This document shows, one piece after another, positions 7,839 to 38,405 of a stretch of DNA of 64,000 nt. The stretch is from Antennarius striatus. Taxonomy: Eukaryota; Chordata; Actinopteri; Lophiiformes; Antennariidae. How positions within the stretch are numbered: position 1 is the first letter of the stretch; each line of letters begins with the position of its first letter. The notes under the pieces are model-generated. The model saw only the letters and a list, made by a program, of their open reading frames with translations. It ran no database searches and was not told the DNA's origin. The position numbers and the translations under genes were made by a program. The stretch covers positions 3,141,501-3,205,500 of the forward strand of contig NC_090783.1 in NCBI RefSeq assembly GCF_040054535.1, in the 5' to 3' direction.

Positions 7839-10800
7839 CTACTGGAGGAGCACACTGTCAGGTTTGGGATAGCCAAATAGCCTAAAGTCTGGTTCATACA
7901 GCTGGTACAGTTCTCTCCTCATTCTCATGGGAATCTTGGAAAACCAGTCTCTTTCCCAGCTGGTTGCGGTGCGGTTTCGAGCACCCGATGGGAAGTGTAC
8001 GATATCATCCACTTCCAGAAACTTCAGCAGGTGCTCGGCATCTGTTTCCAGGGTTTCAAGTCGTCCGATGAAGTCATACTTCACCTGACATGGATGGCAC
8101 AGACGATACACCTGAAATAGATAAGAAGCAGGCAGAGGACGTAAAAACAGCATCTCAAAACGTCTTCAATGTGAACATAACGAAGAAAATAAATAGTATG
8201 TGGGGAAAAAAGTAAAATGAGAATTAAAAGTATTCATAACGAGCTACATTGTGTGATTGAAGAAAAATATAATCAAATAAAGTCTCTGATAAATTCTAAA
8301 TTTTGTGGGATGAAAAATCCATGCAGAATTGAACAGTTCAAATTTCTGAATAAGAAGTTCATAAACACTCTTTAAGCACAAATGTTTACAGTACAATTTC
8401 CCTATAAGTTTTTGGTAGATAAGGTTCACTAAAATAGGACAAAATAAATGGTAATAAAGGTGCTGAAACAACAAATGAAATATATGTATTTATAGTCACC
8501 TGGTAAATTAATCATTATAAATAAAGTAGGTAAATCCAGCAGTCCTTTTCCAGATGTAGTCATCCTTGAATCGTTTCTAACTACAAAATAAAATATTCAT
8601 TATTCTGTTGCCAGATATTTCGTTAATGTATAAAGCAATATTTCCTCTATAAATGTGCCCAAAACAGAATTAAATATGCTAAAAACAAGCTACACATCAT
8701 GACATTTACACTGTTTGTTATGATTGCGCTCTTCCGTAGCATTTGGTTTTTTGTCTATCCATCTGACCAATGGTAAGATACTTAAAAACGTCATCTATTT
8801 TGAACGCATTTTTATTGGCCGCCACACCCGTCAATCAAAAGGCAGACACCCTTCTGATCCCACCCCTTAAACGCTGCTTGACAGGTGTCTAAGGAGGAAG
8901 AATGCATGCCGTCGGCACGTTTATTGTTATTTAAAGCAAGAACGTGAACTTAAATGATTTATAAATGTTTGTTAAATGTTATTCTACATGACACCCGTTC
9001 ATATTTGTCATTTACACATTTCAACGTAAGTACGTTAACTTATTTTCGTTCTCTACAACTAAATCCTGTTGGCTAACTGCTAGCTATCATTAGCCGGCTG
9101 ATAAACATCTTTTGATAGTGAATACTAGTAGGTAGCTAACAGTTAGCATTCAGTTGACCTTAGCATTTCTGTCAAGCCAACAACAGGATTTGGTTTTGGG
9201 TTTTTTTACAACCTCTGCTAACGTTTTCTGTATACCAGATGATTTACCAAAATAAGTGCAACTGAAGGTCTGTGCAGGATTAAGTGAATATTGCATGAAG
9301 TGTGCAAAAATCACTGTAAGGTGACGGGAAAGACTCTTCCTATAATAAACGGAATAAGGTAGTCGACCACAATGATCCTTCATTTTGAGAGTGTTATGAC
9401 ATAAGCAGCAAACTGCAAGTTTGGAAGTGCCACGAGGGCACTTAAGGGCTTGCATGATGATCTCTATAAATGGTCCTCCTGTGGCAAAAGTTTCCCTGCC
9501 CGGATGCCTTTGAGAAACTTTTCTGAAAGCCAAGAAAGATGCAGCGGTGAACCACAAACCCTGTGTGCATGAAGCACAAATGTAATGTAAATATTGATCT
9601 GTCGGGTGTTTTTGTACAATGAATATACTTCATTCTGTCATCCCCATCCTTGTGATCACGTTGTTTTAAGTCTTCTTAAATCTCATCCTGCTCACCTCGC
9701 ATCTGGTTTTAGGGGGGTTTTTCAGTGGGAACAACTGGACCCAAATTTTATTCTAGGAGAAACATTGAATATTCATACGCAGAATGACTAAAAAAAAGGT
9801 AAATATTAAATACGAAAACTGTCAAACTTATAAATGTGGTATTAAACGGTTTGTATTGTGCTGCTGCGTGAGATGAATACCTGCCGCCAGTGTTCATTGA
9901 AGATACTCTCCCTCTCTGTCACGGGGTCGAGCAGATATGAGATGAATTGCTGAAATGTTGGTCTGATTCCTGCTGCAAACGCTTCAGCTGCCGTCTCTGG
10001 TAAACTCTCAGACACGTTGCCGTACCTCCTCATCATGACCGACCCAAACTGCCTGTAGAAGTCCTCATTGGGCCTTGAAACACACACAAATGCACTCACT
10101 TTAATACTTCAAGAATGAAAGAGCTTCTGTTTGACCTAAAAGGGAAGTACATTCCTCAGTGCACTCAAACGCACTTTCTCACACACACTTTTCACACACG
10201 TATCCACTAACAGCAGCACACCTTCCGAACTTGTTCCTGAAGGCTGAGATGAGACGAACAAACGGGTCTCGAACAAACAGAAACTTGGTGTAGTGCTGCA
10301 GCTTGAGTTCCATCAGATGGCGAGAGAGAGAGCCATAGTGACGCCAAAACCTGGTAAAACACACACACACGAGCGTTATGGATGCACTCAGTTTCTACTG
10401 ACAAAAGAAAATCATTTTTAACCTATTATTACTTTTCACTTTAAAAAACGAGCCGATCCAGACACAGCATATTGTTACAAGCTGAAGCTTCAGTCAGATC
10501 TGACTGGAGAATAATTCCTGTGATGTTTTCTGTTATTCTTAAAGGCCCAATACTACAATACAGTTCTGGCTTCACACTGATTCATTTATTTTCCATTGCT
10601 GTTATTGTGGGATTGAGTGTGTGGATTGCTTTTGCGTCTAGACGTCTGTTTTCCACGTAGACTTTTTGGGCAAACAAATTACAGTTTACAGGCTTGTTTG
10701 TGTAAAATACATGTTTTCCTGCTAATCCTTTCATTTGCAGATGACTAATTTTTATTTTTAAGCTGCAGTCCTACTAATCATGTCATTGTGGAGACGTATT

Positions 10801-11755
10801 TTCCGGTGCAGCGCTGCCGTCGGACGACTGAGTTTTTATCACACCACTACAGTCACTGCAGTTCAACCTGATGGACATAAAGCTCAGTGGTGATGTCTTT
10901 TGTCATGTTAGCTTCCCTCTTGTGCACCTAAACAACATAGTAGATTACAAATTTGACTCTGTGACAGTTTGTGTGTGTGTGGGTGTGTGTGTATCATACT
11001 TGGCAAAGGTGAGGTGGATGGAGGAGTTGTGTACGAGGTCAGGAGGTACAGCTTCTGGGTCGGTGTAGGGTTTTCCTGAGGAGGGGGAGATGAGGGACTG
11101 AGACAGGACCACCATCACTCTCTTCCAGTTGGTGCATGCTACCTGGACAAAGACGGGAGGAAGGGAAGACGACAAGAGGCACAGTGAACGTGTGTGTAGA
11201 CACACAAACACACACACACACACGGTGCAGCTGTACCTTGGGGACGTAGCAGTAGATAATCCGGTGTTTGTCGTCCACTATGAGGTGATCCAGCTCCCTG
11301 TTGGGGATCTGCTCAAATGCCCGAGTCCTTCCGGGGAATTCTACACCTTCCCTTCCTGAACACGTATCCGTGATCCTCCTCTTCCTCATCTCTTGTTCCC
11401 TTTCTCTGACAGTGTTATGACTACTCTCCTCCTCCTTATCCTCCCTTGTTTCCTCTTTCTTTTGTATTTGTTTGCTCCTCCGTCCCTCCTCTTCGTGCTC
11501 GTCTCCTGCTCCTCCACCCTCCTCGGGGACCAGTGTTGTCCTGGAGGTGGTAGTGTTCACCGTTGAGGAAGAACTGATCTGGGTTCTGCTGGTGAATCTG
11601 GAGTATGAACGGCTTGTAGAGGAAGACTTATGCTTGGGGTCCTGTAGCTGGTCCAGGCGGAGACCCCCAATGTCATCCCAATAGACGATGATCAGAAGGA
11701 TCATAACCAAAGACCCCAGGATGAATGCCGTTCGTAGACCCCGCCATGTTCCCAT
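7839..11755 (-). CDS. chst12: Carbohydrate sulfotransferase 12-like, copy 1, intact, 5 exons
   Basis: Golgi type II membrane enzyme of the HNK-1 sulfotransferase family. CHST12 moves sulfate from PAPS to the 4-O position of GalNAc in chondroitin/dermatan. Exons: 11237-11755, 11000-11142, 10222-10350, 9881-10073, 7839-8111, giving 418 aa against 414 in human CHST12. All introns are GT-AG. There is one N-terminal anchor (about residues 7-26, with [10 protein letters not shown]), then a Ser/Thr- and charge-rich stem. The 5' phosphosulfate loop is [12 protein letters not shown] across the exon 1/2 junction (about 172-183) and the 3' phosphate site is [15 protein letters not shown] (about 244-258). 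The C-terminus has [25 protein letters not shown] and [13 protein letters not shown]. The first of five related units, all on the minus strand. Family membership is firm. The exact acceptor substrate is inferred. Numbering this copy as the orthologue is arbitrary. Confidence 0.9.
9150..9557 (-). other. Unrecognised 135-codon frame in intron 4 of chst12-like copy 1
   Basis: A continuous minus-strand frame that is Cys-, His- and Lys-rich (for example [19 protein letters not shown]). I do not recognise a family, and the start is undecided. It lies in the longest intron of copy 1 (8112-9880), just right of a GC-richer block near 8720-8920 containing ATTGG and CCAAT elements. It may be chance or a decayed mobile element. 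It has no equivalent in the other copies, where this intron is short. Confidence 0.15.
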
Positions 11756-12709: not shown

Positions 12710-12766
<57 letters not shown>

Positions 12767-14086: not shown

Positions 14087-15787
14087 AGTCCTTTATTGCT
14101 GACACTCTGGATGAGTGCCAGTGACCTATGCTAGTGGTTCTGTGAAGCAGGCCAGTAGTTACCATACTATGTTCAATAAACAATAGGTTCAAACATGAAA
14201 TTAGTCAAATGCGTAATTAAATTACAAACATGAAATGATGTGCACGTGTTCAGTGACAAAGAGGAAGTCCTGCCTATTTTTGCCCGTATTTATAGGGGAG
14301 GCAATGACAGGCAGGAAGAGCTTTCACCACCTTGTGGAGTGGAGGCAGAATGTAGTCTTTCGGTTTTTAGGTTGTTTATAACAGTTTTCTTAGGAGACAG
14401 AAGACGTTAGTCTCTCGATACTGAAATGTATGTTTTATTAATGCCATTATTTGTTCTGTTTACTTTCTCAGCGGTTTTAACCCATTTTAACCCACTGTCC
14501 ACATTTGAGGACAGAATAAAAAACGCTGGAAATAATGATCAAGATGGGTTATAGAGCAACGTTATGAAGTGCGGGTAATAAGAACATATTGATTCATCAA
14601 TATATGATGCAAAATTCTCATTTATATAATATCTTTCTGTCTTAATATCTGTCTATAATATCTTTCTTCTGTCTTTCTTCTTCTGTCCTCTTTAGCTTTA
14701 ATTAAAGTAGTCCAGCTGTTATTAAACAATACATTTTTATTCAGTTCATTACAGAATCAAACCAGGAGAGAACTTTTATCTGCAATGGACTGTTATTATA
14801 TTGTCAGAATAACTGTTAAACAAGTGTTTAAGTAGCTGCACCATAGATTGGTCTTCACAGGCATTCACTGGCTTTGCATAGGGGGAGAAGGAGTGGGCTG
14901 CACATGGAGAGCTGGGCCCAGGCCTGTGGCTGCATGTGGTCTACTGGTGGAGCACACAGTCAGGTTTGGGATAGCCAAGTAGCTGGAAGTCTGGTTCATA
15001 CAGCTGGTACAGCCCTCTCCTCATTCTTATGGGAATCTTGGAAAACCAGTCTCTTTCCCAGCTGGTTGTCGTGGGGTTTTGATAAATCAAAGGGAAACGT
15101 ATGATATCATCCACTTCCAGATGTTTCAGCAGGTAGTTTGCATCTTTTTCCAGGGTTTCAACTTGTCCGATGAAGTCATACTTCACCTGACATGGCACAG
15201 ACGATACACCTGACATAGATAAAGATCAGAATAGAATGTAAAAACAGCATCTCAACAGATCTCCCTCATCAATCATAAGAACATGCAGAAGCAGAAAGTA
15301 AATAGCACATGTGTAAAAAAAAATTCAATCGAAAGAATTTTATTCTTGAACTGGGGCACTTTTGTGTGCAAAAATTTGCGTGCTGAAATTCAGTTTTGTA
15401 CAGTTCCGGGAACCACACCCATTTAACAAATTCCACAATAGAGCGACAAATTATTTTTTTAATCTTATTATTTATGGTAATTTAAACGTTTATGAATCCT
15501 CCCCATACTGATATTAAACCACTTACTATCTGTATCAACTTTTCCCACACTCTGATAGACTATTTAAAGCACTTTTGTGTCTCAAGGAAGTCCAAAACTC
15601 ACGGAATGTAGCGCACGTCCGGATGCGTCAGCGAATAGAATGCGCATTCGGTATGACATGACTGCCTGCCAAAAATTTGCAATGAGGTGAAGTCGCGAGG
15701 TTTGATGCTCGAATGCGCAAAGGCACACTGCAATTACTCAATATCTTAACATTAGTCTATATAGACACAAATGGAATTATTTTAATA

Positions 15788-16537
15788 CAGTGGTACCTCT
15801 ACTTACGAAATTAACTGGTCCTGGAAGAAAATTCTTCACTAGAAAATTTCGTAAGTAGAAAAGCGTTTTCCATGCAAATGCCCTAATCCGTTCCAAGCCC
15901 GCTAAAATTCAGACATAAATGTTTTATATAAAGCATAAAAATGCATTATAACATGTAACAAATACATGTTACGATTAGATTATCACACAATAAATGAGAG
16001 TTGTGCATAATGTAAAAAACAAAGAATAAAGAATAAAAATGATGGTCATTTACCTTTTAACTGGTGTCCTCATTGTTTTTTGCCCTCTTTGGTTCATGCG
16101 CTCCTATCTCACCATGAACAACAGAGTGAATTCCAGTCCTCCTTCTGAACTTCTCCAACCACCCACGCGATGCCTTAAACTCCTTAAACTTCCTTTTGTT
16201 TTAATAACGTGGTGATTGTAGATGCGGCCATATTCTTTGGCGAGATCAACCAAACGCATCCCTTTCTCACACTTTTCTATGATCTCTTGCTTTGTTTGTA
16301 CGGACAAAAAAACTATTTTCTTCATCTTTTATTTTCCTCTTTTCTCCATCACTTTCTTGGGGTCCATAGCAATTACTCAAAAATAAAGTATATTTGCGCA
16401 AAACTATCAGAACACCTCATGGGTCGAGGGCCGATTGACGAGGACGCTTTCGTAACTAGAGGCAATATTTTCCTGTTGAGGCCTTTCACGAGTAGAAAAT
16501 TTCATATTTAGAGACATTCGTAAGTAGAGGTACCATG
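15788..16537 (-). mobile_element. Tigger/pogo-like DNA transposon remnant
   Basis: Inverted ends: CAGTGGTACCTCTACTTACG at the left and CGTAAGTAGAGGTACCATG at the right, next to TA at the left. Inside, a minus-strand frame (16104-16325) starts MKKIVFLSVQTKQEIIEKCE and continues with LAKEYG, resembling the N-terminal CENP-B/pogo helix-turn-helix of Tigger transposases. At 750 bp it cannot encode a whole transposase. It sits within exon 4 of chst12-like copy 2. Confidence 0.75.
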
Positions 16538-16600
16538 ATTCCTGTTGCAAACGCTTCAGCTGCTGTCTTTGGCAAACTCCCACACAAGTTGCCATACCTC

Positions 16601-16681
16601 TATGTGTCTATATAGACATAGGTCAGCACGGGGTTGAATATGGATTTAATTTAATTTAATTTAAATTTAATTTTATACTGT

Positions 16682-16740
<59 letters not shown>

Positions 16741-17047
16741 TATTTATTTTTTATACTGTTTTATATTTTAATTCAATTTTATACTGTTTAGATTTTATTT
16801 TATACTGTTTATATTTATATTTTAATACTGTAATATTTTTAAATTTTATACTGTTTATATTTTAGTTATAGTTTAGTATATAAGTCCTGTTAGTGCTGCA
16901 TGTGTCTGTCTGTTAGTGTAATGTATGTCTTGTGGTATGTCCTGTGATGTCAATGTTTCCTTTTCTCCTGGTGTTTATCCAGTATTATTTGTTATTTAAT
17001 GCCTGAGCAGTGGATATATGCAATTTCCTCCGGGATTAATAAAGTAT

Positions 17048-17104
<57 letters not shown>
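16601..17104 (+). mobile_element. Rex1-like LINE 3' end with (AT)n and (TATC)n tail
   Basis: The segment ends in GGGATTAATAAAGTA followed by a long (TATC)n tail, the same 3' UTR and tail seen in opposite orientation at 18.55 kb and again at 35.5 kb. It contains an (AT)n tract at about 16687-16735. It is flanked by the direct repeat TACCTC (16595-16600 and 17105-17110), which fits a target site duplication. It splits exon 4 of chst12-like copy 2. Confidence 0.7.
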
Positions 17105-17106
<2 letters not shown>

Positions 17107-17224
17107 CCTCCTCATCATGGCCAACCCCATACGTCCTGTAGATGTCCTCATTTGGCCTTGACATGAAGACAAATGCAATCAGTGAAATAACTTCAGTTTG
17201 ACCACAAAGTGCCTGTAGGGCCTT

Positions 17225-18022
17225 ACTGTCATTAAGCAACTGTATCAATCAAATCAATGAATGGATGGATCAAAATTTCCTCCAGCTCAATAAAGACAAG
17301 ACAGAAGTGATTTTTTTTGGCCCCAAAAATGAAAGATCAAAGATCAATGCTCACTTTGACTCCATGTCATTGAAAGCTACAAATCAAGCCAGAAATCTTG
17401 GTGCAGCCATTTAAAAGCTATTACTAAATCTGCCTATTACCACCTGAAAACCATTGCTCGAATTAAGGGGTTTCTGTCTCAACATGACACAGAAAAACTT
17501 GTCCATGCTTTCATTTTCAGTAGGATTGATTACTGTAATGGTGTCCTTACAGGTCTACACAAAAAATCAATCAGGCAGCTTATGAAGCATCCAGACCCCT
17601 TAGGTCATCTGGGACAGGTTTATTCTGTGTCCCCAGAACAATAACCAAACAAAGTGTAGCAGCATTTAGTTATTATGCTCCTCACCTGTGGAACAAACTG
17701 CCTGACTACCTGAGGTCTGCTCAAACGGTCACTTCATTTAAATCAGGGCTAAAGACATTTTTGTTCAATGCAGCATTTTCCTGAATTTGTTTTTTAAATT
17801 ATCTGCATTTTTTAATCAGTTGTTATAATTTCAAAATTTAATCTCCTGTTTAAATGACTTCTCTTTTTCATTGCTTTTTATTGATATTTTATTGTCTTGT
17901 TTTAATCCCCTCTTATCTTTAAAGTGTTCTTGTGTTTTGTTGCCTTTGTAAAGCACTTTGAATTGCCTCTGTATGAATTGTGCTCTATAAATAAACTTGC
18001 CTTGCCTTGCCTTGCCTTACAT
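17225..18022 (+). mobile_element. L2/Maui-like LINE 3' fragment
   Basis: Translating the plus strand gives broken pieces typical of the end of L2-type proteins (LNKDKTEVIFFGPKN; FIFSRIDYCNGVLTG). The 3' end has the family hallmark TTGTAAAGCACTTTGAATTG and finishes in a (TTGCC)n tail at about 18000. It lies in intron 3 of chst12-like copy 2. Confidence 0.75.
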
Positions 18023-18554
18023 TCCCAAGCACACACAAACACACTCTCATACACACACTTTCTAAACTTGCCCCACTAATAGTGGCACACCTTTGAAACT
18101 TGCTCCTGAAGGCTGAGATAAGTCAAACAAATGGTTCTCGAACAAAAAGAAACTTGGAGTAGTTCTTCAGCTTGAGTTCTATCAGTCGGCGAGAGAGAGA
18201 CTTATTGTGATGCAAAAAGCTGGGAACACACAGACATTTGTATATTTGTATTTATGTATGTTCAAACATGTGTAACATAAAACATAATTTTCATGAAAAC
18301 TGGGATTTAATTAAAGAGCAGAATCATTTTTTAGAACATAGAGACAGCAGGCAGTTCAAGTCCACTTGCATTCTGAAAATTCTTTCAATAAAGTCAATTA
18401 TAAAGACAACTATTATTTCTCCTGACAGAATTTAATATGTCCAGCGCAGAGAAGATTTCTGATAAAATTGTGAAATAATTTTTTTTTTTTAAAGTTTTTG
18501 TTTTGGTGACAATCACTTGCACTGTTGAGATTAGGATTTCTTTACATTTCAGAT

Positions 18555-19293
18555 AGTTTGATAGATATATACTTTATTTATCCCGGAGGAAATTGCACAA
18601 TAAATAATAATACATAAATACTGGATAAGCACCAGAAAATAAAGAAACACTGACAAGCACAGGACAGAACATACCACAAGACATATATTACGCTGACTGA
18701 ACATACAGTATACTACACTTGCAGAACATATACTACACTACAGGAAATATACTACACTAACAGACATATATAACACTAACAGGACATATGCTACATTAAG
18801 GTACAAAGTGATAGAGAGCTGCAGCACCACCTGGTGGTTAAGGTACACTCTTCTTACACTGAAAGACACGTCATTATCCCGATGTCACTGTATACTTTGG
18901 CCCCTGTAGCACAGGCTAACATCCTATCTCCTCCCCTACATTCAACCGCTTGCTGACCCCCCCCACGACTGAGAGAGTCATTTTACCCCCTGATGGCACG
19001 GGGCACTAAGGAGGACCTCAGCCTGTCTGTGGAGGCGCTGTGTGACAGCAGTCTGCCGCTGAAGGTGCTTCTCTGCTGGGAGACGGTGGAAGCTTGTTCT
19101 GATGGCACCACTACACGAAGTCCATCACCAATGCCCTGAACTCCCCTTCCTCACCATCCCTGATACATGCCACAATCGCAGTGTCATCGGAGTACTTCTG
19201 TATGTGGCATGTATGCGAGTTGTACTTGAAGTCCGTCGTGAAGAGAATTGGGGAGAGCACGGTCCCCTGTGGAGCCCCTGTGCTGCTGGTCAC
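18555..19293 (-). mobile_element. Rex1-like LINE 3' fragment replacing exon 2 of copy 2
   Basis: A minus-strand frame at 19111-19317 reads STGAPQGTVLSPILF and CHIQKYSDDTAIVACI, the reverse transcriptase motifs of fish Rex1/Babar LINEs. It is followed by the long 3' UTR and a terminal GATAAATAAAGTA. It occupies the place where exon 2 of the sulfotransferase should be. Confidence 0.8.
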
Positions 19294-20239
19294 CATGGAA
19301 GACAAACACACACACACACGGTGCAGCTGTACCTTGGGGACGTAGCAGTAGATAATCTGGTGTTAGTCGTCAACTATGAGGTGATCCAGCTCCCTGTTGG
19401 GGATCTGCTCAAATGTCCGAGTCCTTCTGGGGAATTCTACACCTTCCCTTCCTGAACACGTATCCGTGATCCTCCTCTTCCTCATCTCTTGTTCTCTTTC
19501 TCTGACAGTGTTATGACTACTCTCCTCCTCCTTATCCTCCCTTGTTTCCTCCTTCTTTCGTTCTTGTTTGCTCCTCCATTCCTCCTCTTCATATTTGTCT
19601 CCTGCTCCTCCACCCTCCTCGGGGACCAGTGTTGTCCCGGTTCTTCCTTCCACGATGGAGGAAGAACCGGTCTGGGATCTGCTGGTGGATAGAGAGTATG
19701 AACAGCTTGTAGAGGAAGAATCTGATTGAGGTAACTTCTGTTTGTGGGCCCTTAGCTGGTCGAGGATTAAACTGTCAATGCCATCCCAGTAGATGATGAT
19801 CAGAGAGATCATAACCAAAGACACCAGGATGAAGGCTGGTCGTTGATCCTGACATGTTACCATGGTTATAACAGGTCCAGAGCTGCAATTGTTAAAGAAG
19901 AGAAGATGAGGTCAGTTTGTCATCTGCAACTGATAGAAAGAGGAAGCCTAATTTCAGACATGTTCTTTTTTATTAGGGTGGCTGGAGAATAAATTAGATG
20001 AAGTGATTAAGTGACTATTATGAAAAAATACAAGCGGCTGTGGGTGTTTTTTTCTGCAGGTTTAAATTCTCAACCAGATCTAAATTCCCCTTAAGATTTC
20101 ATATTTGAAAAGTTTGATATTCTGGTTTTACTGTAGTGGGAGCAGTGACTCAAGAAAAATTTTAGCAATCAAAAAAAAAATCTTATTAAGATTTTTGTCA
20201 CAGAAGTTACTTTAAGACCCAAATTTTCTTTATAGTGTA

Positions 20240-21638: not shown

Positions 21639-22603
21639 TTAACGATTGTTACTGCGAGGCAGTATGGACAGTGGGGACGCAGAGTCGACAATCAGGTCCA
21701 TAGCATGGGCTGGTGAGTCTGAGGGTTGGATCTTGACATTGCACTTTATTTTATCTGGCGTACAGGCAGTCTCTTGAATGCGCAGAACAGTCAATTCAGG
21801 AACCTCCACTTCCCTCACTTGATGGGTAGAAGTAGAGCGGCAAACACGGGCGAAATGTCCCTTCTTGTGACATGATTTGCATGTAGCTTTAGCAGCAGGA
21901 CATGAGGGAGCATTTGCAAGGTGACAGTCAGATGCACGGGAGGACTTTCCAGTAGCAGCAGTAGGTGAAGGTGCATGTGTGGATGGTTTGCTCTGTTGCC
22001 GTGGTCGGAATGATTTCTTTTGCACTGCTTGTACTTGTAGGCTAGGTTTATCTCCAGCCATGCATTTAGCCTGTTTAGCTGCAGACTCAATCTGTGTAGC
22101 AATTGTCATGGCCCTGTTTAGAGTAAGATTAGGCTCCAGTAGTAATTTCTCCCTAATATGGACATTTGTGACATATTGAATAAGCTGATCGCGCAGCATC
22201 TCATCAGCCTTATCCCCAAAGTCACATGTGGGCCTTGTGTTCTTTTTCTGAATGTGTGGCGTTCCACTACCACATTAGTCATCGGTATGAAGTGAGCTTT
22301 CAATGCTGTAACAGCAGAATCATATGTATCACTTATATCCAGCAGTGAGTGAAAGATCCTCTGTCCTTCTGTTCCAATGCAGTGAAGTCGTACAGCTCTC
22401 TTTCTGGCAGCAGGCCATGCATTCCCTGTTGCATTTATGACCAGCAGATAGTTGTCAAAAACTCGCAACCATGTCTTGAATGGCAGGTGGGTTACCTCGT
22501 CGCCAATTCGTAGAGGTGGACGGTTAGAATGAAGAGACTGTAGACATGGTTCTATTTCAATCGACAATTCTTTGTTTTTCGTGTTAGCATCCCTTCCCAT
22601 CAT
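21639..22603 (-). mobile_element. Gypsy-like LTR retrotransposon fossil, gag and start of protease
   Basis: Minus-strand frames encode a retrotransposon gag with a CCHC zinc knuckle (CKSCHKKGHFARVC), and at the left end the beginning of an aspartic protease (DLIVDSASPLSILP). No reverse transcriptase, integrase or LTR pair is recognisable around it. It is an old, broken, internal fragment. Confidence 0.75.
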
Positions 22604-22828
22604 CGCATGACTCTCACTTTTCCTCTCTTTTCTTCACGTCATCCCATAGGACCCCTACAGGCAGGCTTCCCACAGGGACACCATGTGGTGCAAAACAGTA
22701 GTGCACGCATTCAAATACTGTGTAGCCTAAACAGTATAACGGGACACAACAGCATTCATTCTTCATTCCGCACTGACTCCGAAATAAATAAAACAGAAGT
22801 AATATCAATTATTTTTTTATACTGTGTG

Positions 22829-23436: not shown

Positions 23437-24461
23437 CTACTGGAGGAGCACACTGTCAGGTTTGGGATAGCCAAATAGCTTGAAGTCTGGTTCATACAGC
23501 TGGTACAGCTTTCTCCTCATTTTTATGGGAATCTTGGAAAACCAGTCTCTTTCCCAGTTCATTGTCGTGGGGTTTTTGTAAATCGAAGGGAAGTGTATGA
23601 TATCATCCACTTCCAGAAGCTTCAGTAGGTGCTTTGCATCTGTTTCCAGGGTTTCAACTTGTCCGATGAAGTCATACTTCACCTGACATGGATGGCACAG
23701 ACGATACACCTGACATACATAAGAAGCAGACATGGGATATAAAAATAGCATCTCAAAACATTAATCATTAGAACATGCAGAAGCAGAAAGAGGCTAAAAA
23801 GAAAGAAGTTAAAAAGAGAAGGCAAGTCTTCATAATCATACAGTCTGACACATGCCAACATTTGTGAGCGAGAAAATCCATGGACACCTGAATGGTTCAA
23901 ATGTCTGAATGAGAAGTTTGAACGTAGTACATGGAAAAAAGAAATTAAATCAATAGAATTTTATTCCTGAACTGAGAAACTTTTTTGTGTCATGTGCTAA
24001 AATGAGTATTCTGAAATTTATTCTTATTTTTTTAATGACTAATAATACAAAATTGTATTATTGCGTCATATGAAATGAGTAATCTCAACAGACTCATGTA
24101 TCACTCATAACAATAATGGGTGTGACATTTAGCTATTTGTATTGTGCTGCTGCGTGGGATGAATACCTGCCGCCAGTGTTCATTGAAGATACTCTTCCTC
24201 TCTGTCACTGGATCGATCAGGTATGAGATGAATTGCTGAAAGGTCGGTTTTATTCCTCTTGAAAACGCTTCAGCTGCCGACTTTGGTAAACTCCCAGACA
24301 CGTTGCCGTAACGACGGATCATGTCCAATCCAAAACTCCTGTAGAATTTCTCATTGGGCCTTGAAACAGAGACAAACACATCTACTTATTTCAAGAATGA
24401 AAGAGCTTCAGCTCTACCACAAAGGGAAGTAAATTCCCCAGCATGCACAAACACACTCTTA

Positions 24462-24506
<45 letters not shown>

Positions 24507-24860
24507 GCACACACGTTCTACCCATCCCTTAAAAGCAGCACACTTTTCAAACTTGTTCCTGAAGACTGAGATAAGTCGAACAAACGGGTCTCGAACAAAC
24601 AGAAACTTGGTGTAGTTCTGCAGCTTGAGTTCCATCAGTTGGCGAGAGAGAGAGCTATCATGATTCCAAAAGCTGGGAACACAAAGACATATATATATTC
24701 GTATGTATATATGTATGTATGTTTATACATGTGTAACATACATACAAATATAATTGTCATGAACACTGGGATTTAATGAAAAAGCACAATCAATTTTAGA
24801 ACATAGAGATAACAGGCAGTTCAAGTCCTTTCGCATTTTGAAAATTCTTTCAATAAATGT

Positions 24861-24905
<45 letters not shown>

Positions 24906-25108
24906 GTACTTGGCAAAGGTGAGGTAGATGGAAGACTTATGTACGAGGTCAGCAGGTACAGTTTGTGGGTCGGTGTAGGGTTTTCCTGAGGAAGGGGAGA
25001 TGAGGGACTGAGACAGAACCACCATCACTCTCTTCCAGTTGGTGCATGCTACCTGGACAAAGACGGGAGGAAGGGAAGACGACAAGAGGCACAGTGAACT
25101 TGTGTGTA

Positions 25109-25197
<89 letters not shown>

Positions 25198-25727
25198 TGC
25201 AGCTGTACCTTGGGGACGTAGCAGTAGATAATCCGGTGTTTGTCGTCCACTATGAGGTGATTCAAGTCCCTGTCGGGGATCTGCTCAAATGCCCGAGTCC
25301 TTCCGGGGAATTCTAGACCTTCCCTTCCTGAACACATATCCGTGATCCTCCTCTTCCTCATCTCTTGTTCTCTTTCTCTGACAGTGTAATTACTCCTCTC
25401 CTTCTCCACATCGTCCCTTGTTTCCTCTTTCTTTTGTTCTTGTTTGCTCCTCCGTTCCTCCTCTCCATGTTCGTCTCCTGCTCCTCCACCCACCTCGGGG
25501 ACCAGTGTTGTCCTGGAGGTAGTAGTGTTCACCGTTGAGGAAGAACTGGTGTGGGATCTGCTGGTGAATCTGGAGTATGAACGGCTTGTAGAGGAATAAT
25601 TCTGTTTGGGGTTCCGTAACTGGTTAAAGTTCAGACCCTCAGTTTGATACCAGTAGACGATGATCAGAGGGATTGTAACCAAAAACCCTAGGATGAATGC
25701 TGTTCGTAGACCCTGCCCTGTTACCAT
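23437..25727 (-). CDS. Carbohydrate sulfotransferase 12-like, copy 3, intact, 5 exons
   Basis: Exons: 25209-25727, 24910-25052, 24544-24672, 24167-24359, 23437-23709. The lengths (519, 143, 129, 193, 273) and phases equal those of copy 1, again giving 418 codons. It keeps the membrane anchor (FLVTIPLIIVYW), the 5' phosphosulfate loop [12 protein letters not shown] and the 3' phosphate site [13 protein letters not shown]. It differs from copy 1 at the start of exon 3 (NFWNHDSSLSRQLM against [14 protein letters not shown]) and in the stem. Intron 1 is 156 bp and mostly a (GT)n tract starting 14 bases after the donor. No lesion was found, so it is probably a working paralogue, with substrate unknown. 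The promoter-side sequence right of 25727 matches that of copies 2, 4 and 5. Confidence 0.88.
24863..25194. repeat. (GT/CA)n tracts flanking exon 2 of chst12-like copy 3
   Basis: A (GT)n tract at about 24863-24904 lies just downstream (in gene sense) of exon 2, and a (CA)n tract at about 25110-25194 fills most of intron 1. Equivalent tracts are present at the same places in copies 1 and 4, so the repeats predate the duplications. Confidence 0.9.
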
Positions 25728-28985: not shown

Positions 28986-29059
28986 CATAACATAACATCA
29001 CATAACATTTTAACACAGTTGATGACAGAGTATACTAGGATATAAGAATCTACATCTGC

Positions 29060-32000
29060 AATGTAGCCGCAAGAGGACACAAGCCAGTGTCTTATTGTGC
29101 CGGTCCCAAGCCCGGATAAATACAGAGGGTTCCGTCAGGAAGGGCATCCGGCGTAAAACTTTTGCCAAATCAAAGATGCGAATCAAACCTATGACTTCCA
29201 TACCGGATCGGTCGAGGCCCGGGTTAACAACGACCGCCATCAGCGCTGTTGACCTACATGGCGCCGGTGGAAATTGGATTACTGTTGGTCGAAGAAGGAG
29301 AGGAGGAAAGTGCGTTCGCACGAAGAAAGAGAAGAGGAACACCAAGAGTATAGGACTGAGAGTAGGGACGTTGAATGTTGGAACTATGACAGGAAAAGGT
29401 AGAGAGTTGGTTGACATGATGCAGAGGAGGAAGGTAGACATACTGTGTGTCCAGGAGACCAGGTGGAAAGGTAGCAAGGCTAGAAGTTTAGGAGCAGGGT
29501 TCAAGTTGTTCTATCATGGTGTAGATGGGAAGAGAAATGGAGTAGGAGTTATCTTGAAGGAGGAGTTTGTTAGGAATTTCCTGGAGGTAAAAAGAGTGTC
29601 AGATAGAGTGATGAGTCTGAAGCTAGAAATAGAAGATGTGATGTTCAATGTTGTTAGCGGGTATGCTCCACAGGTAGGATGTGAGCTGGAGGAGAAGGAG
29701 AAATTCTGGTCGGACCTTGATGAAGTGATGCAGAGCATGCCTAGAAGTGAGAGAGTTGTCATTGGAGCAGACTTCAATGGACATGTTGGTGCAGGAAACA
29801 GAGGTGATGAGGAGGTGATGGGCAGGTTTGGTATCCAGGAGAGGAACGCAGAAGGACAGATGGTAGTTGACTTTGCAAAAAGGATGGAAATGGCTGTAGT
29901 GAGTACTTTCTTCCAGAAGAGGAAGGAACATAGAGTGACCTATAAGAGTGGCGGTAGGAGCACACAGGTAGACTACATCTTGTGTAGACGGTGTAACCTG
30001 AAAGAGATCAGTGACTGCAAAGTAGCGGTAGGTGAGAGTGTAGCCAAACAGCATAGGATGGTGGTGTGTAGGATGACTCTGGTGGTGAGGAAGATGAAGA
30101 GGGCAAAGGCAGAGCAGAAGACAAAATGGTGGAAGCTGAAAAAGGAAGAGTGTTGCATGACTTTTAGGAAGGAGTTAAGACAGGCTCTGGGTGGTCAGGA
30201 GGTGCTTCCAGATGACTGGACAACTACAGCTAATGTGATCAGGGAGACAGGTAGGAGAGTACTTGGTGTGTCATCTGGAAGGAAAGTAGATAAGGAGACT
30301 TGGTGGTGGAATGAGGAGGTACAGGAGTGTATACAGAGAAAGAGGTTAGCCAAGAGGAAGTGGGACACTGAGAGGACTGAGGAGAGTAGACAGGAGTACA
30401 GGGAGATGCAGCGTCAGGTGAAGGTAGAGGTAGCAAAGGCCAAACAAGAAGCTTATGATGACTTGTATGTTAGGTTAGACAGTAAAGAGGGAGAGACTGA
30501 TCTATACCGGTTGGCAAGACAGAGAGATAGAGATGGGAAGGACGTGCAGCAGGTTAGGGTGATTAAGGATAGGGATGGAAGTCTATTGACAGGTGCCAGT
30601 AGTGTGATGGGAAGATGGAAAGAGTACTTTGAAGAGTTGATGAACGTGGAAAATGAGAGAGAACAAAGACTAGAAGAGGTGACTGTTGTGGACCAGGATG
30701 TAGCAAAGATTAGTCAGGATGAAGTGAGGAGGGCATTGAAGAGGATGAAGAGTGGAAAGGCAGTTGGTCCTGATGATATACCTGTAGAGGTATGGAAGTG
30801 TCTAGGAGAGGTGGCGGTAGAGTTTCTGACTGGGTTGTTCAACAGGATCTTAGATAGTGAGAAGATGCCTGAGGAATGGAGGAGAAGTGTGCTGGTGCCC
30901 ATTTTTAAGAACAAGGGAGATGTGCAGAGTTGTGGCAACTACAGAGGAATAAAGCTGATGAGCCATACAATGAAGTTATGGGAGAGAGTAGTGGAAGCTA
31001 GACTAAGGGCAGAAGTGAACATTTGTGAGCAGCAGTATGGTTTCATGTCAAAAAAGAGTACTACAGATGCAGTATTTGCTTTGAGGATGTTGATAGAGAA
31101 GTACAGAGAAGGCCAGAGGGAGCTGCATTGTGTTTTTGTAGATCTGGAGAAAGCTTACGACAGGGTGCCCAGAGAGGAACTGTGGTATTGTATGAGGAAG
31201 TCTGGAGTGGCAGAGAAGTATGTTAGAGCAGTGCAGGACATGTATGAGGACTGTAAGACAGTGGTGAGGTGTGCTGTAGGTGTGACAGAGGAGTTCAAGG
31301 TGGAGGTGGGACTGCATCAGGGATCAGCTCTGAGCCCCTTCTTGTTTGCCATGGTGATGGACAGGCTGACAGACGAGGTTAGACAGGAATCTCCATGGAC
31401 TATGATGTTTGCAGATGACATTGTGATCTGTAGTGAGAGCAGGGAACAGGTGGAGGAGAAGCTAGAGAGGTGGAGGTTTGTCCTGGAAAGGAGAGGAATG
31501 AAGGTTAGCCGCAGTAAGACAGAGTACATGTGTGTGAATGAGAGGGACCCAAGTGGAAGAGTGAGGTTACGGGGAGAAGAGATCAAGAAGGTGGAGGATT
31601 TTAAGTACTTAGGCTCAACAGTCCAGAGCAATGGAGAGTGTGGAAAAGAGGTGAAGAAGCGTGTACAGGCAGGATGGAACGGGTGGAGGAAAGTGTCAGG
31701 AGTGATGTGTGATAGAAGAGTTTCAGCTAAAATGAAGGGAAAGGTGTACAAAACTGTGGTTAGACCAGCGATGTTGTTTGGTCTAGAGACAGTGTCACTG
31801 AGGAAAAGACAGGAGACAGAGCTGGAGGTAGCAGAGATAAAGATGCTGAGGTTCTCTCTGGGATTGACCAGGAAGGATAGGATCAGGAATGAGTACATCA
31901 GAGGGACAGCACATGTTAGAGGTCTTGGAGATAAAGTCAGAGAGGCCAGACTGAGATGGTTTGGACATGTCCAGAGGAGAGATAGTGAATATATTGGTAG

Positions 32001-32194
32001 AAGGATGCTGAGTTTTGAACTGCCAGGCAGGAGGCCTAGAGGAAGACCAAAGAGGAGGTTTATGGATGTAATGAGGGAGGACATGAAGGTAGTTGGTGTG
32101 AGAGAAGAGGATTCAAAGGACAGGGCTAGATGGAGGAAATTGATTCGCTGTGGCGACCCCTGAAGGGAAAAGCCGAAAGGAAAAGAAGAAGAAG
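29060..32194 (+). mobile_element. RTE-like LINE with one intact 1022-codon frame
   Basis: The open frame 29095-32163 encodes an endonuclease plus reverse transcriptase polyprotein. The AP-endonuclease-like domain begins at about residue 82 (LRVGTLNVGTMTGKGRELV, VDILCVQETRW, GADFNGHVG, STQVDYILCR). The reverse transcriptase follows ([49 protein letters not shown] at about 770). The C-terminus ends KLIRCGDP. The 3' end is short and finishes in (GAA)n. The 16-bp direct repeat AAGAATCTACATCTGC at 29044-29059 and 32195-32210 is a clear target site duplication. The intact frame and perfect duplication suggest a recent insertion. It landed in the 3' flank of chst12-like copy 4, antisense to it. Clade is from motif memory; the true translation start is uncertain. 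Confidence 0.9.
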
Positions 32195-32303: not shown

Positions 32304-33955
32304 CTACTGGAGGAGCACACTGTCAGGTTTGGGATAGCCAAATAGCTGGAAGTCTGGTTCATACAGCTGGTACAGCTTTCTCCTCATTTTTATGGGAATC
32401 TTGGAAAACCAGTCTCTTTCCCAGTTCATTGTCGTGGGATTTTTGTAAATCGAAGGGAAGTGTATGATATCATCCACTTCCAGAAGCTTCAGCAGGTGCT
32501 TTGCATCTGTTTCCAGGGTTTCAACTTGTCCGATGAAGTCATACTTCACCTGACATGGATGGCACAGACGATACACCTGACATACATAAGAAGCAGCATA
32601 AGATATAAAAACAGCATCTCGAAACATCTTCCTCATTAATCATTCAAACATACAGAAGCAGAAAATAAACACTACCAAGGAAATCATAATTTTATTGTCA
32701 TTTACAATCATAAAGTTAAAGCTAGCAGGCCCTTTCCCAAAGTACACTTATACTTGAAACTTGTCCATTGAAACAATGAAATATTCATTCATTCGTATCA
32801 ATTACTAAACGTGTCAACATTAGCCCAAGTATAAATATGAAATAAATGAGCTCAACAAACCCAGTTAAGCATCTGAGGTGTGTCATTAAACCATTTGTGT
32901 TGTGCTGCTGTGTGACATGAATACCTGCCGCCAGTGTTCACCGAAGCTCGTCCTCCTCTCAGTCGCTGGATCGACCAGATATGAGATGAATTGCTGAAAC
33001 GTTGGTTTGATTCCTGCTGCAATCGCTTCAGCTGCTGTCTTTGGCAACGTCCCAGACACGTTCCCATAGCGACGGATCATGACTGATCCATACCGCCTGT
33101 AGAAGTCCACTTTGGGACTTGACACACACAAACATACCCCGCTAAATGAACGAAACAGCTTCAGTTTGTCGACAAAGTGAAGTATATTCCTCAGGAAAGA
33201 CAAACACACTCTCACAAAACACACACATTTGCCACCCATCCATTTACAGCAGCACACCTTTGAAGCTTGTTCCTGAAGGCTGAAATAAGTCGAACAAATG
33301 GGTCTCGAACAAACAGAAACTTTGTGTAGTTCTTCAGCTTACGTTCCATCAGATGGCGAGAGAGAGAACTATTGTGATGCAAAAAGCTGTGAACACACAA
33401 ACACACAGGGTTAAACAACATGGATAAAGTTTTACACAATAATCCCTCTTTAATGCGATCCAGGACCACCAGTGAAAAACAAAATTCCACGATTTAGTGA
33501 CAATCTATTTAATTATTTATGATTATTTAAACGTTTATGAACCCTCCCCATACTGATATTAAACCACCTTGTTTTCCCACAGTCTTATAAAAATTTTAAA
33601 GCAGTTTTGTATTATGTATTATGTATGTATTTTGGTGAGAAATGATTGTACTGTACAGATTAGGATTTCTTTATCTTACACTTACAAAACAAAATTGTTG
33701 ATGAATATGACTCTGTGACACTGTTTATGTGTTTGTGTGTATGTATGTCATACTTGGCAAAGGTGAGGTGGATGGAAGACTTGTGTACGAGGTCAGCAGG
33801 TACAGTTTGTGGGTCGGTGTAGGGTTTTCCTGAGGAGGGGGAGATGAGGGACTGAGACAGGACCACCATCACCCTCTTCCAGTTGGTGCATGCTACCTGG
33901 ACGAAGACGGGAGGAAGGGAAGATGACAAGAGGTACACTGAATGTGTGAGTGGAT

Positions 33956-34003
<48 letters not shown>

Positions 34004-34533
34004 TGCAGCTGTACCTTGGGGACGTAGCAGTAGATAACCCTGTGTTTGTCGTTCACTATGAGGTGATTCAAGTCCCTGTCGGGGATCTGCTCAAATGCCC
34101 GAGTCCTTCCGGGGAATTCTACACCTTCCCTTCCTGAACACGTATCCGTGATCCTCCTCTTCCTCATCTCTTGTTCTCTTTCTCTGACAGTGTAATTACT
34201 CCTCTCCTTCTCCACATCGTCCCTTGTTTCCTCTTTCTTTCGTTCTTGTTTGCTCCTCCGTTCCTCCTCTCCATGTTCTTCGCCTGCTCCTCCACCCTCC
34301 TTGAGGACTAGGGTTGTTCTGGAGGTGGTAGTGTTCACGGTGGAGGAAGAACTGGTCTGGGTTCTGCTAGTGGATTTACAGTATGAACTGCTTGCAGAGG
34401 AATAATTCTGTTTGGGGTCCTGTATTTGGCCAAAGTTTAGACCCTTGATGTTGTACCAATAGACGATGATCACAAGGATCATAACCAAAGACAACATGAT
34501 AAGTGCTGTTTGTAGACCCTGCTTTGTTACCAT
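32304..34533 (-). CDS. Carbohydrate sulfotransferase 12-like, copy 4, intact, 5 exons
   Basis: Exons: 34015-34533, 33754-33896, 33258-33386, 32925-33117, 32304-32576, with lengths identical to copies 1 and 3 and 418 codons. It keeps the anchor (SLVMILVIIVYW), [10 protein letters not shown] and [15 protein letters not shown]. Exon 3 starts NFLHHNSSLSRHLM, so the Trp of the FWRHYG motif in copy 1 is Leu here. Exon 4 starts SPKVDFYRRYG where the others have RPNE(D/K)FYR. Intron 1 is 118 bp with a long (GT)n. The LINE at 29.06-32.19 kb sits about 110 bp beyond its stop codon and may truncate or alter its 3' UTR. Probably functional; substrate unknown. Confidence 0.88.
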
Positions 34534-34960: not shown

Positions 34961-35519
34961 AACTTCCTGGCACCGGCCAGAGAACAGCAAAAAAGAGAAA
35001 TATTAGCTTGCTTTATCAAACCTAAGATACTTGAGTTTCTCTCAAAGGCTACAGTCCCTGACAAAAGTCTCATCACTTATCTAACTTGTAAGAACAACAA
35101 ATAATAAATTGCTTTGTTAGAATTGATTTGGGCGCTTAGAAGCGAGAACGAGGAGGAAGAGAATGACGGCACAACAGAAACTAATATTGTTCTTAAAGGA
35201 GGCCAAGCAGGCATACATTAAGAAGTTGGAGAACCGGCTGGTCCATAGCCACGTGTGGGTGGTATGGAATGAAGACCGTCGTTGAACGGGAGGCATTGAC
35301 CCCTCCATTGCAGTGGAGAGGAACACAGAGTGAGCTGATGAATTAAACACCTTTTTTAATAGGTTCAGCTTTTATAACAGCTGATTGAAAAATGTTCAGC
35401 TCACCCAGACTGATCAGTATGACATGAAAAATTCAGGTATAAAATATCTTTCAAAAGTGTGAGAAAGAACACCTCCCCAGCACGACAAAGAAATGACAGT
35501 TGACAAGTTTCTTGTGTTG

Positions 35520-35750
35520 ACTGTTTTTATACTGTATATATTATACTGTTTATATTTTAATTTTATACTGTTTATATTTTAATTTTTTAGTATATGTACT
35601 GTTAATTGCTACATGTGTCTGTTAGTGTAGTGTATGTCTTGTGGTATGTCCTGTTTTGTTTTTGTTTTTTCCTGGTGTTTGAATGAGCAGTGGATATGTG
35701 CAATTTCCTCTGGAATTATTAAAGTATCTATCAATCTACCGATCGATCTG
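35520..35750 (+). mobile_element. Rex1-like LINE 3' UTR fragment
   Basis: Contains CTGTTAGTGTAGTGTATGTC, TTGTGGTATGTCCTG and ATGTGCAATTTCCTC with AATTATTAAAGTA and a degenerate TATC tail, matching the element at 16.6-17.1 kb. Confidence 0.6.
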
Positions 35751-36161
35751 TAGACTCCCTTGTTGCTGTGAACTGGAAATAATAAGTCCTAACAACTGAT
35801 GTTCCTAATGCATTGTGAATGGCTCGACTTACTGATCAATCAGGAATCCTGTCCCGACTCTTCCGTGTTGTTTATGTCCTCTTCTGTATGTTTCTATCAC
35901 ACTGTGATGAGACACAGCACAGGTTGGGATGAGTCTGTAGAGTCGGTTTTTCTTGTCTGTTGTTTTACAACAGTTCTGACTCTTAACCCTTCATAGGACT
36001 CTCATTAAAATACTCGGAAATTCTAAACTTAAACCTTATAGTATTATTGGAGGACATAACAGAACTTTATTTCTGTTGTGACGTTTTTTAATGTCATGCA
36101 GAAAATCACATTACCAAAATTTGCCTGATTAAAGGGTAAAGTTTATTAATATTAATGGTTC

Positions 36162-36296
36162 TATTATTCCACAAGGTAGCACCACGGGGTGTGACGTAGC
36201 ATCAGCTTTTATCAATTTCAATTTAAAGTTTTCTAATTGAAGCTATTCCCCAATTTAGAAGAAGTGTAAGAGTACCTGACGGAGCAATAGCAACAA
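36162..36296. repeat. About 135-bp near-identical repeat, first copy
   Basis: From TTCCACAAGG through GGTGTGACGTAGCATCAGC to GACGGAGCAATAGCAACAAA. The second copy is at about 39066-39201, in the same orientation with only a few differences. Part of it overlaps the LTR element fossil to the right, so it may be mobile-element sequence. Confidence 0.75.
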
Positions 36297-36490
36297 ATAA
36301 TTACCACAGGCTTTACTCTGGAAACATGAAAAGTGTGATGAATCTTGTGCATGGTTGGCGGGAGCTTCAGTGTAATAGTTGTAGGACTAATCACACGAAC
36401 AATTGGAAAAGGGCCAGTAAACTTGGGGAGCAGCTCAAGAGTACACCCCCCCCCCCAGCTAGGAATGTCCCTGGCAGACAGCCACACTCT
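36233..36490 (-). mobile_element. Gypsy-like LTR retrotransposon fossil, integrase C-terminal fragment
   Basis: The minus strand encodes the end of a Gypsy-type integrase (LLPKFTGPFPIVRVISP, HHTFHVSRVKPV). No other parts of the element are identified next to it. It is an old, broken fragment. Confidence 0.7.
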
Positions 36491-36715
36491 TTGTCCTACC
36501 CGATGGCCTCAGGTGAAAATGACAAACTAACTATGGGGAGAACTCAACACAGATTGGCTAAACACCAAACAAAACAATCAGGCAAAACAAACCATGTGCA
36601 GCAAATCACTAAATGTGGCGGAAACAGAAAAGTACAAGAACTGAACCCATAAAATAACATACACGAGCAAGACAGACACAGACCATCACAATTTCATCAT
36701 TTTTTAAATGTTGTA

Positions 36716-36880
36716 TACTAATGTGCTCCCCGAAGGGAAATTAATAGCACACTCCAGTTAGTGAATACTTCAAACACATGCATACATGTTAGTTTGTACA
36801 GGCCCCTGCAGCACATGCATACATACACAAGGGGGCCTGTAGGTATGCAGGGGGAGGTAGAGCGGCCCAGTATGCCTGTC
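36716..36880 (-). mobile_element. Truncated tRNA-derived SINE
   Basis: Matches the body and 3' end of the SINE at 39.7-40.1 kb (CCCCGAAGGGAAATTAA, CAAACACATGCATACA, GGCCTGTAGG) without its tRNA-like head. Confidence 0.6.
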
Positions 36881-37110
36881 CTGCTGTGTCCAGCCTTCCT
36901 AGCAGTGCTACAGTGTTTTGTACTCATTACCCGTACATTAGCTGAAGGTGTTGTATATTTACATCTCATCCCTAGCCTCGTGATTAACGTGAGGCGGGGG
37001 ACACTCCGGCCACCACGCCAGTGCCACCGCAGCAAAGAATAAAGAATTATTTTTATTTTTTTTAAGAATACAATTTTATTTTTTTTCTCCAATTTTTTTT
37101 TTTGTAGATC

Positions 37111-37797
37111 TAGATGTACTCATTCCTGATCCTATCCTTCCTGGTCACTCCCAGAGAGAACCTCAGCATCTTCATCTCTGCTACCTCCAGCTCTGTCTCC
37201 TGTCTTTTCCTCAGTGACACTGTCTCTAGACCAAACAACATCGCTGGTCTCACCACAGTTTTGTACACCTTTCCTTTCATTTTAGCTGAAACTCTTCTAT
37301 CACACATCACACCTGACACTTTCCTCCACCCGTTCCATCCTGCCTGGACACGCTTCTTCACCTCTTTTCGACACTCTCCATTGCTCTGGACTGTTGACCC
37401 GAAGTACTTAAAATCCTCCACCTTCTTGATCTCTTCTCCCTGTAGCCTCACTCTTCTACTAGGGTCCCTCTCATTCACACACATGTACTCTGTCTGACTG
37501 CGGCTAACCTTCATTCCTCTCCTTTCCAGGACAAACCTCCACCTCTCTAGCTTCTCCTCCACCTGTTCCCTGCTCTCACTGCAGATCACAATGTCATCTG
37601 CAAACATCATAGTCCATGGAGATTCCTGTCTAACCTGGTCTGTCAGGCACACCTCACCACTGTCTTACAGTCTTCATACATGTCCTGCACCACTCTAACA
37701 TACTTCTCTGCCACTCCAGACTTCCTCATACAATACCACAGTTCCTCTCTGGGCACCCTGTCATAAGCTTTCTCCAGGTCTACAAAAACACAATGGG
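37111..37797 (-). mobile_element. Internal fragment of the RTE-like LINE
   Basis: The minus strand encodes MMFADDIVICSESREQVEE through RKDRIRNEYI, nearly the same as the full copy at 29-32 kb. Both ends are missing and about 115 bp is deleted internally near 37647, upstream (in element sense) of the FADD region. Its right edge abuts the exon 1 relic of chst12-like copy 5. Confidence 0.85.
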
Positions 37798-38405
37798 GTC
37801 CTGTAGCTGGTAGAGCTTGAGACCCCCAATGTCATCCCAATTGTCACGTCTCTGTCCTATGATTTTCCTGTTTATTTTCCTACCACTAACAACTCATATC
37901 ATTCCAGATCCTGTCTCACCCTCAATCAGTTCATCCCCTGCACCTGCTGTGTCTCCACACACCTGCAGCCACTCCCTAATCCGTCTCCACTCTACATATA
38001 CCCAGCTCTGCCCTCAGTACTCTACCAGATTGTTTAGTCTTCGCCCTGACTCTCCAGCCTTCGTATCCTGCTCGCTTTGGTGACCGTGTATGAATCCCGT
38101 TTGCTCTCTCGACCCAGTCTGCTCCTCATCTGATTCGTCTGCCTGGTTTGTTGGCTGTTTCGTGCCTGACCCTGCTGGATTCTGGACTCTACCTTTAGCC
38201 TGTCGTTTTTGGATACCTCTGCCTATCGGACTGATTATTTGGTACCTGACCTCTATTAAACCTGCTCTTAACCTGCCCGTTTGTCATGCTTTTGGGTTCC
38301 CCATGCCAGTCGTGCTCAGCCATGACACCAATAGTTGAGGATGAGAAGGATCATAACCAAAGACCACAGGATGAATGCCATTCGTAGACCCCACCTTGTT
38401 ACCAT
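37797..38405 (-). pseudogene. Carbohydrate sulfotransferase 12-like, copy 5, exon 1 relic
   Basis: The minus strand from 38405 matches the start of exon 1 (start codon, anchor with LVMILLI, then the stem up to QLQDP), but the remainder of exon 1 and exons 2-5 are gone, cut by the LINE fragment at 37797. A solo LTR is inserted in the piece that remains (37842-38327). The 5' flank right of 38405 (GGCAGGTTCAGAGCTGCGAT) matches the flanks of copies 2-4. Confidence 0.85.
37842..38327. mobile_element. Solo LTR, 486 bp
   Basis: It begins TGTCACG and ends CATGACA, the TG...CA ends of an LTR, and is flanked by a 5-bp direct repeat CCAAT (37837-37841 and 38328-38332). Without it, the two sides join into sequence matching exon 1 of the other chst12-like copies. 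Gypsy-type is likely from the 5-bp duplication. No internal element sequence is left. Confidence 0.8.

Follow-up and report, generated by a model that had tools for sequence, protein, structure and literature searches.

A tandem cluster of chst12-type sulfotransferase genes with apparently derived introns in the fish Antennarius striatus

A tandem array of chst12-like genes

The window analyzed here is a stretch of 64,000 nucleotides from Antennarius striatus (contig NC_090783.1, called C8 below, 3141501-3205500). Within positions 7839-38405 of the window are five minus-strand units that resemble chst12, the gene for chondroitin 4-O-sulfotransferase 2, and we refer to these as copies 1 to 5. 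(Coordinates are those of the window unless a contig is named.) This locus is a genuine tandem cluster of chst12-type genes, and it is ordinary in kind. Three of the copies have intact reading frames: copy 1 at 7839..11755 (exons 11755-11237, 11142-11000, 10350-10222, 10073-9881, and 8111-7839); copy 3 at 23437..25727 (exons 25727-25209, 25052-24910, 24672-24544, 24359-24167, and 23709-23437); and copy 4 at 32304..34533 (exons 34533-34015, 33896-33754, 33386-33258, 33117-32925, and 32576-32304). A preliminary description of this DNA had given exon lengths of 519, 143, 129, 193, and 273 bp and 418 codons for each of them, and our check of splicing and reading frame agrees. All 12 introns in these copies are GT-AG, and each coding sequence has 1257 bp, encodes 418 amino acids, and has no internal stops.

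All three intact copies match Sulfotransfer_2 (PF03567), with E values from 6e-69 (copy 1) to 1.1e-68, so the family match is not due to chance. The scores are 233.4, 232.9, and 232.6 bits, versus a curated cut-off of 22, and the alignments cover positions 1-252, 2-252, and 2-252 of the 252 positions in the model. A search of PDB sequences with copy 1 gave just two weak matches (E = 0.14 and 0.35). Reading the protein sequences, we found a hydrophobic N-terminal segment, as in type II Golgi enzymes, and both of the motifs of the type that binds 3'-phosphoadenosine 5'-phosphosulfate (PAPS), including [AV]FRNK. (The roles that we assign to these motifs are presumed to apply here.) Across seven paralogs from the same genome, 49 sites are invariant; copy 1 retains all 49 of these, and copies 3 and 4 retain 48 each. 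A long GT/CA microsatellite (25110-25195) begins just within intron 1 of copy 3 and is shorter in copies 1 and 4.

The other two copies are relics, as had been proposed. Copy 2 (14941..19863) is a pseudogene: exon 1 (19863-19333) and exon 3 (18219-18091) each contain a stop, exon 4 is present as two partial pieces (17156-17105 and 16600-16536), exon 5 (15209-14941) has a net deletion of 4 bp, and exon 2 was not found at E ≤ 0.001. Copy 5 (37794..38405) consists of bases 1-121 of exon 1 (bases 1-78 at 38405-38328 and bases 74-121 at 37841-37794), interrupted by a 486-bp insertion. This insertion comprises 481 bp with TG...CA ends and a 5-bp target-site repeat (ATTGG), and it resembles a solo long terminal repeat. 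With three intact genes and two relics, both the birth and the death of genes are visible within 30 kb, as the preliminary description stated.

The coding sequences of the intact copies differ from each other at 9.1-12.5% of bases. Introns 2 and 4 are largely unalignable among these copies; intron 1 is about 85-98% identical and intron 3 is about 69-79% identical, in the alignment windows that cover them. Given this divergence, the copies are not assembly duplicates. One gene that was assembled five times should not have yielded such differences, nor relics with insertions of their own, and we give this explanation virtually no credence. We rejected it from the divergence between copies.

Relatives elsewhere in the genome

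We compared the protein sequence of copy 1 to the whole genome (548 Mb in 42 contigs) and found 55 matches at E ≤ 0.001. On C8, this search found no match outside of 3149342-3176030 (contig coordinates); it also missed the scrap of copy 5, so equally small scraps could have been missed elsewhere. The nearest match off the array is on contig C16, with 64% identity over residues 234-416 of copy 1. A search of the genome for the family gave 42 matching stretches. There are three chst12-like sets in this genome: the array in the window, a single gene on C16, and an array on C23. The latter two loci were overlooked in the preliminary description.

The C16 gene (7753016-7755409) has four coding exons (7753016-7753384, 7753952-7754104, 7754270-7754449, and 7754861-7755409). 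For one exon upstream of it, we found no Pfam match at E ≤ 0.001 and no match to a PDB sequence at E ≤ 1. The C23 array (7987130-8187447) is more diverged and occupies both strands of a transposon-rich region. Within a 200-kb stretch (7980001-8180000), the C23 copies are known from exon matches: seven copies have matches to all four of the exons that we searched for (two of the matches are shortened in one copy), and fragments of exon 5 lie at four further places. An additional copy is at 8185880-8187447, beyond this stretch. Two C23 copies that are about 46 kb apart are 92-100% identical across the searched exons.

In phylogenetic trees of 14 and 11 rows, the window copies form one clade (support of 98/99 and 97/99), so they are each other's closest relatives among the family members from this genome that we compared. 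The C16 gene is the sister of the window array (97/94 and 96/93). The window copies, the C16 gene, and four C23 copies group apart from the CHST11/13-like rows (100/100). In the approximately unbiased (AU) test, a grouping of C16 with C23 was disfavored (p = 0.040), as was a grouping of the window copies with C23 (p = 0.022); these p values are modest, we defined the groups once the first tree had been seen, and the trees took in four of the at least seven C23 copies. The other paralogs that we compared were named by recognition, and we take them to be one CHST11-like, two CHST13-like, one CHST14-like, and two CHST8/9-like genes. Loci of the family on C10, C12, C17, C18, and C24 are outside of the paralog comparison.

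Apparently derived introns in the window genes

The introns of the window genes are between PK and VACTNWK, inside codon 221, inside codon 264, and before V329, and these genes have no intron at KLK or near EQRRK. In the C16 gene, introns are found before EQRRK, between PK and VACTNWK, and between HLMK and VKLKK. The C23 copies have introns at PK/VACT, at K/AKLK, and inside the K codon before YDF. We considered whether the first intron is common to C16 and C23, but this was ruled out: the likely first acceptor in C23 precedes the EQRK point by about 17-18 bases, unlike in C16, where the intron is just before EQRRK. So, we count just the introns before VACTNWK and before KLK as common to C16 and C23.

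Three of the four introns of the window genes look derived, to judge by where the relatives have introns, and this was overlooked in the preliminary description. The positions in codon 221, in codon 264, and at V329 are uninterrupted in the C16 gene, in the six other paralogs that we read, and in the C23 copies. (For instance, intron 3 of copy 4, at 33118..33257 on the minus strand, is like introns 2 and 4 in that the position is intronless in the seven comparison paralogs and in C23.) If C16 is the sister of the window array, then the window lineage gained three introns and lost at least one. The intron at KLK could instead be a gain in C16 and C23, if those two were sisters.

Alternatively, the three unusual introns might be ancestral to the family and have been lost from the other paralogs. 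Intron loss is a known process, and the PK/VACTNWK intron is common to the window genes, C16, C23, and one of the two CHST13-like genes, while it is not found in the other CHST13-like gene or in the CHST11-like gene. However, because the three positions are uninterrupted in the relatives, each of these introns would require at least three separate losses on our trees, versus one gain, and we consider an ancestral origin to be improbable.

On either side, intron 4 has a CAG|GT context, which is a usual site for intron gain. We also looked for a source of the introns elsewhere. In a genome search that passed over simple repeats and very common words, neither intron 4 of copy 3 nor intron 3 of copy 4 had a match outside of the array at E ≤ 0.001. 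Many places in the genome match intron 2 of copy 4 (40 of 1118 candidates were scored), and these matches are confined to bases 140-321 of the 367 bases of this intron. Copy 4 cannot be aligned to copies 1, 2, and 3 in the 160 bp that precede exon 3, so the repeat in intron 2 appears to have been inserted later rather than to have given rise to the intron. We rejected a mobile "introner" origin given the lack of matches beyond the array for two introns and the apparent later insertion of this repeat, which is not proven.

The derived intron pattern is the part of this locus that is most worth following up. Vertebrates rarely gain introns, and at this locus three introns that are apparently young occur in parallel copies, with a paralog that differs in its introns in the same genome. 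No publication on intron gain in fish sulfotransferase genes turned up in the literature that we searched. Papers on other families describe high intron turnover in teleost slc26a1/slc26a2 (PMC12357937) and intron gain and loss in the serpins (PMC2746811) and MC receptors (PMC3151243) of ray-finned fish. These cases are like ours in that intron gain or loss is limited to certain lineages of ray-finned fish. The window differs in that the family is another one, the gain would predate the tandem duplication, and the new introns are in adjacent diverged copies.

Probable gene conversion between copies

Exon 5 of copy 3 (23437-23709) and exon 5 of copy 4 (32304-32576) are 98.9% identical, with differences at 3 of 273 bases, while the other exons of these two copies differ by 3.5-18.7%. 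Synonymous divergence is 0.28-0.39 in exon 4, 0.03-0.09 in codons 119-173, and 0.036 in exon 5 of copies 3 and 4. Synonymous changes amount to 13/43 in exon 4 versus 2/56 in exon 5 (p = 3.6e-4, Fisher's test), and exon 5 versus the rest gave p = 8.8e-6; these contrasts, and another test of unevenness with p = 8.9e-4, were picked after the values had been seen. The affinities of the copies also conflict along the gene. In the 160 bp upstream of exon 3, copy 2 is 87% identical to copy 3, versus 49% and 46% for copies 1 and 4 (which is to say unalignable), so this region links copies 2 and 3, whereas exon 5 links copies 3 and 4. In one of the three pairs of intact copies, a longest-run test also favors conversion (p = 0.0054).

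The simplest reading of this uneven divergence is repeated gene conversion, which would make simple estimates of age unreliable. We infer that exon 5 of copies 3 and 4 is a gene-conversion tract. If conversion was repeated, then exon 4 and intron 3 would, on the simplest reading, be nearer to the true age of the copies, and exon-based dates of clusters of this kind may come out too young.

Selection on the intact copies

Across the whole gene, the ratio of nonsynonymous to synonymous divergence (dN/dS) is 0.68 for copies 1 and 3, 0.54 for copies 1 and 4, and 0.46 for copies 3 and 4. For the catalytic part, the corresponding ratios are 0.57, 0.48, and 0.40 (95% bootstrap intervals of 0.35-0.96, 0.32-0.73, and 0.23-0.73), which are below 1 in all three pairs, though conversion between copies can mimic constraint. 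For the stem, the ratios are 1.03, 0.66, and 0.56, and all of the intervals span 1. Similarly, dN is 0.13-0.18 in the transmembrane/stem part versus 0.06-0.09 in the catalytic part. Judging from these ratios and from the invariant sites, the catalytic core is conserved, the constraint is moderate, and the stem is looser.

Proposed history of the cluster

We think it likely that these chst12-type genes (like the gene for chondroitin 4-O-sulfotransferase 2), which lie in tandem next to an eIF3B-like gene, arose by local duplication and supply a partly redundant gene dose. The founder gene would first have gained the three unusual introns (in codons 221 and 264 and ahead of V329). On the best tree, it would also have lost the intron before KLK that is common to C16 and C23. 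Local duplication would then have multiplied the founder. Through conversion, neighboring copies would stay similar in exons 2 and 5 and in the 3' part of exon 1, with introns 2 and 4 drifting apart, and copies would be eliminated by stops and by transposon insertions. Each intact gene would encode a membrane protein of the Golgi with type II topology, and this protein would transfer sulfate from PAPS to the C4 position of N-acetylgalactosamine in chondroitin. The cluster would act as an additional and partly redundant gene dose, with a stem that may drift freely. On the more specific proposal, that a founder chst12 was rebuilt beside the eIF3B-like gene (with three introns gained and at least one of its relatives' introns lost) before it was multiplied and then homogenized by conversion, our judgment is evenly divided. 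If true, the cluster would offer a natural experiment: its young introns could be compared side by side across the copies, and the drift of introns could be separated from the homogenization of exons.

Several points weigh against this account. Any one of the intact copies could be silent. The constraint is weak, in that the interval for the whole-gene dN/dS of copies 1 and 3 (0.49-1.09) includes 1. Copies 3 and 4 each break one paralog-invariant site (A257V in copy 3 and F262L in copy 4), and the FWRxYG-like stretch that follows intron 2 is altered in both. The longest-run test for conversion gave p = 0.0054 in one pair, but 0.053 and 0.22 in the other two pairs. The naming of the window proteins as CHST12 rather than CHST11/13, the names of the motifs, and the 4-O specificity rely on background knowledge that we presume to hold here. 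Similarly, the linkage of human CHST12 to EIF3B is background that the preliminary description also gives, and we assume it to be correct; the sequences compared here are all from this one fish.

Some of these observations would also be expected if there were a single working chst12 gene, most likely copy 1, and copies 3 and 4 were passengers with still-open frames that conversion from the working gene keeps similar. Copy 1 retains every invariant site, its branch is shorter than those of copies 3 and 4, the stem dN/dS of copies 1 and 3 is at 1.03, and two of the five copies are already dead. On the other hand, copies 3 and 4 have no stop or splice defect, and their catalytic dN/dS is under 1 (0.40, interval 0.23-0.73), although the same pattern could arise by conversion from a donor under constraint. 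We regard a single working gene as a tentative alternative, with a probability clearly below that of a partly redundant cluster. Yet another explanation is functional diversification: the copies might serve different tissues, partner proteins, or acceptor chains by means of their divergent stem and transmembrane segments. Amino-acid change is indeed fastest there, as seen from the dN values, but in none of the three pairs is the stem dN/dS above 1 beyond error, and relaxed constraint would itself be expected to give a fast stem. The preliminary description had argued that the expansion implies "dose or substrate diversification," and this goes further than our results: a conserved core with a fast stem is no less compatible with redundancy or relaxed constraint than with new function. 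We consider diversification to be unlikely.

Comparison to known chst12 genes

Like vertebrate CHST12 (C4ST-2), the window proteins have the Sulfotransfer_2 domain, PAPS-binding-type motifs, and an N-terminal hydrophobic segment. The window genes also adjoin an eIF3B-like gene, which would match the presumed linkage of human CHST12 to EIF3B. Unlike vertebrate CHST12, the window has three intact copies instead of one, and five coding exons; the coding region of human CHST12 is, we believe, in a single exon. In cartilage and nervous tissue, chondroitin 4-sulfation is important. The locus displays gain, loss, and apparent conversion together within 30 kb.

Tandem expansion of chst12 in teleosts is already known, and this cluster adds a member. 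In zebrafish, chst12a is on chromosome 3, and chromosome 1 carries chst12b together with five tandem copies (si:dkey-26i13.3 to.7); gar has one chst12; and the copy number is variable among teleosts (PMC4368567, where those data are not shown). In that paper, the functionality of the zebrafish tandem copies is not established. So, both the zebrafish chst12b group and the window are tandem chst12 copies in a teleost, and the function of the extra copies is unproven in both. The comparison is of the tandem arrangement and not of gene structure, as the words exon and intron are absent from the main text of PMC4368567. The expansion had been attributed to "this fish lineage." The copies do form a local clade within the genome, but tandem chst12 genes are published for zebrafish, with variable numbers in teleosts (PMC4368567), and the apparent conversion hides the true age of the copies.

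Neighboring genes and transposons

Part of an eIF3B-like gene, which we named by recognition and presume to be such, is at 41937..43053 on the minus strand, as seen from matches to the eIF2A domain. These domain matches begin about 3.5 kb from the edge of the array, and the one exon that we tested is single in the genome, beside the array.

An open reading frame of a long interspersed nuclear element (LINE) is at 29026..32163 on the plus strand (1045 codons; RVT_1, E = 1.6e-37; Exo_endo_phos, E = 4e-8). It is antisense to copy 4, whose stop codon is 140 bp away. A LINE fragment (37113..37795, minus strand) starts where copy 5 ends; it forms inverted repeats with parts of this opposite-strand LINE, to which it is 97% similar. 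Judging by eye, LINE-like frames similar to the one at 29026-32163 are also present in the C23 region. Between copies 2 and 3 are open frames (21639-22633) that by eye resemble retroelement gag and have a zinc-knuckle-like appearance; the part of them that we scanned (22118-22633) had no Pfam match at E ≤ 0.001. Beyond the eIF3B-like gene is a gene with matches to the SACK1 domain (60133-61632), which we recognized as FAM83-like.

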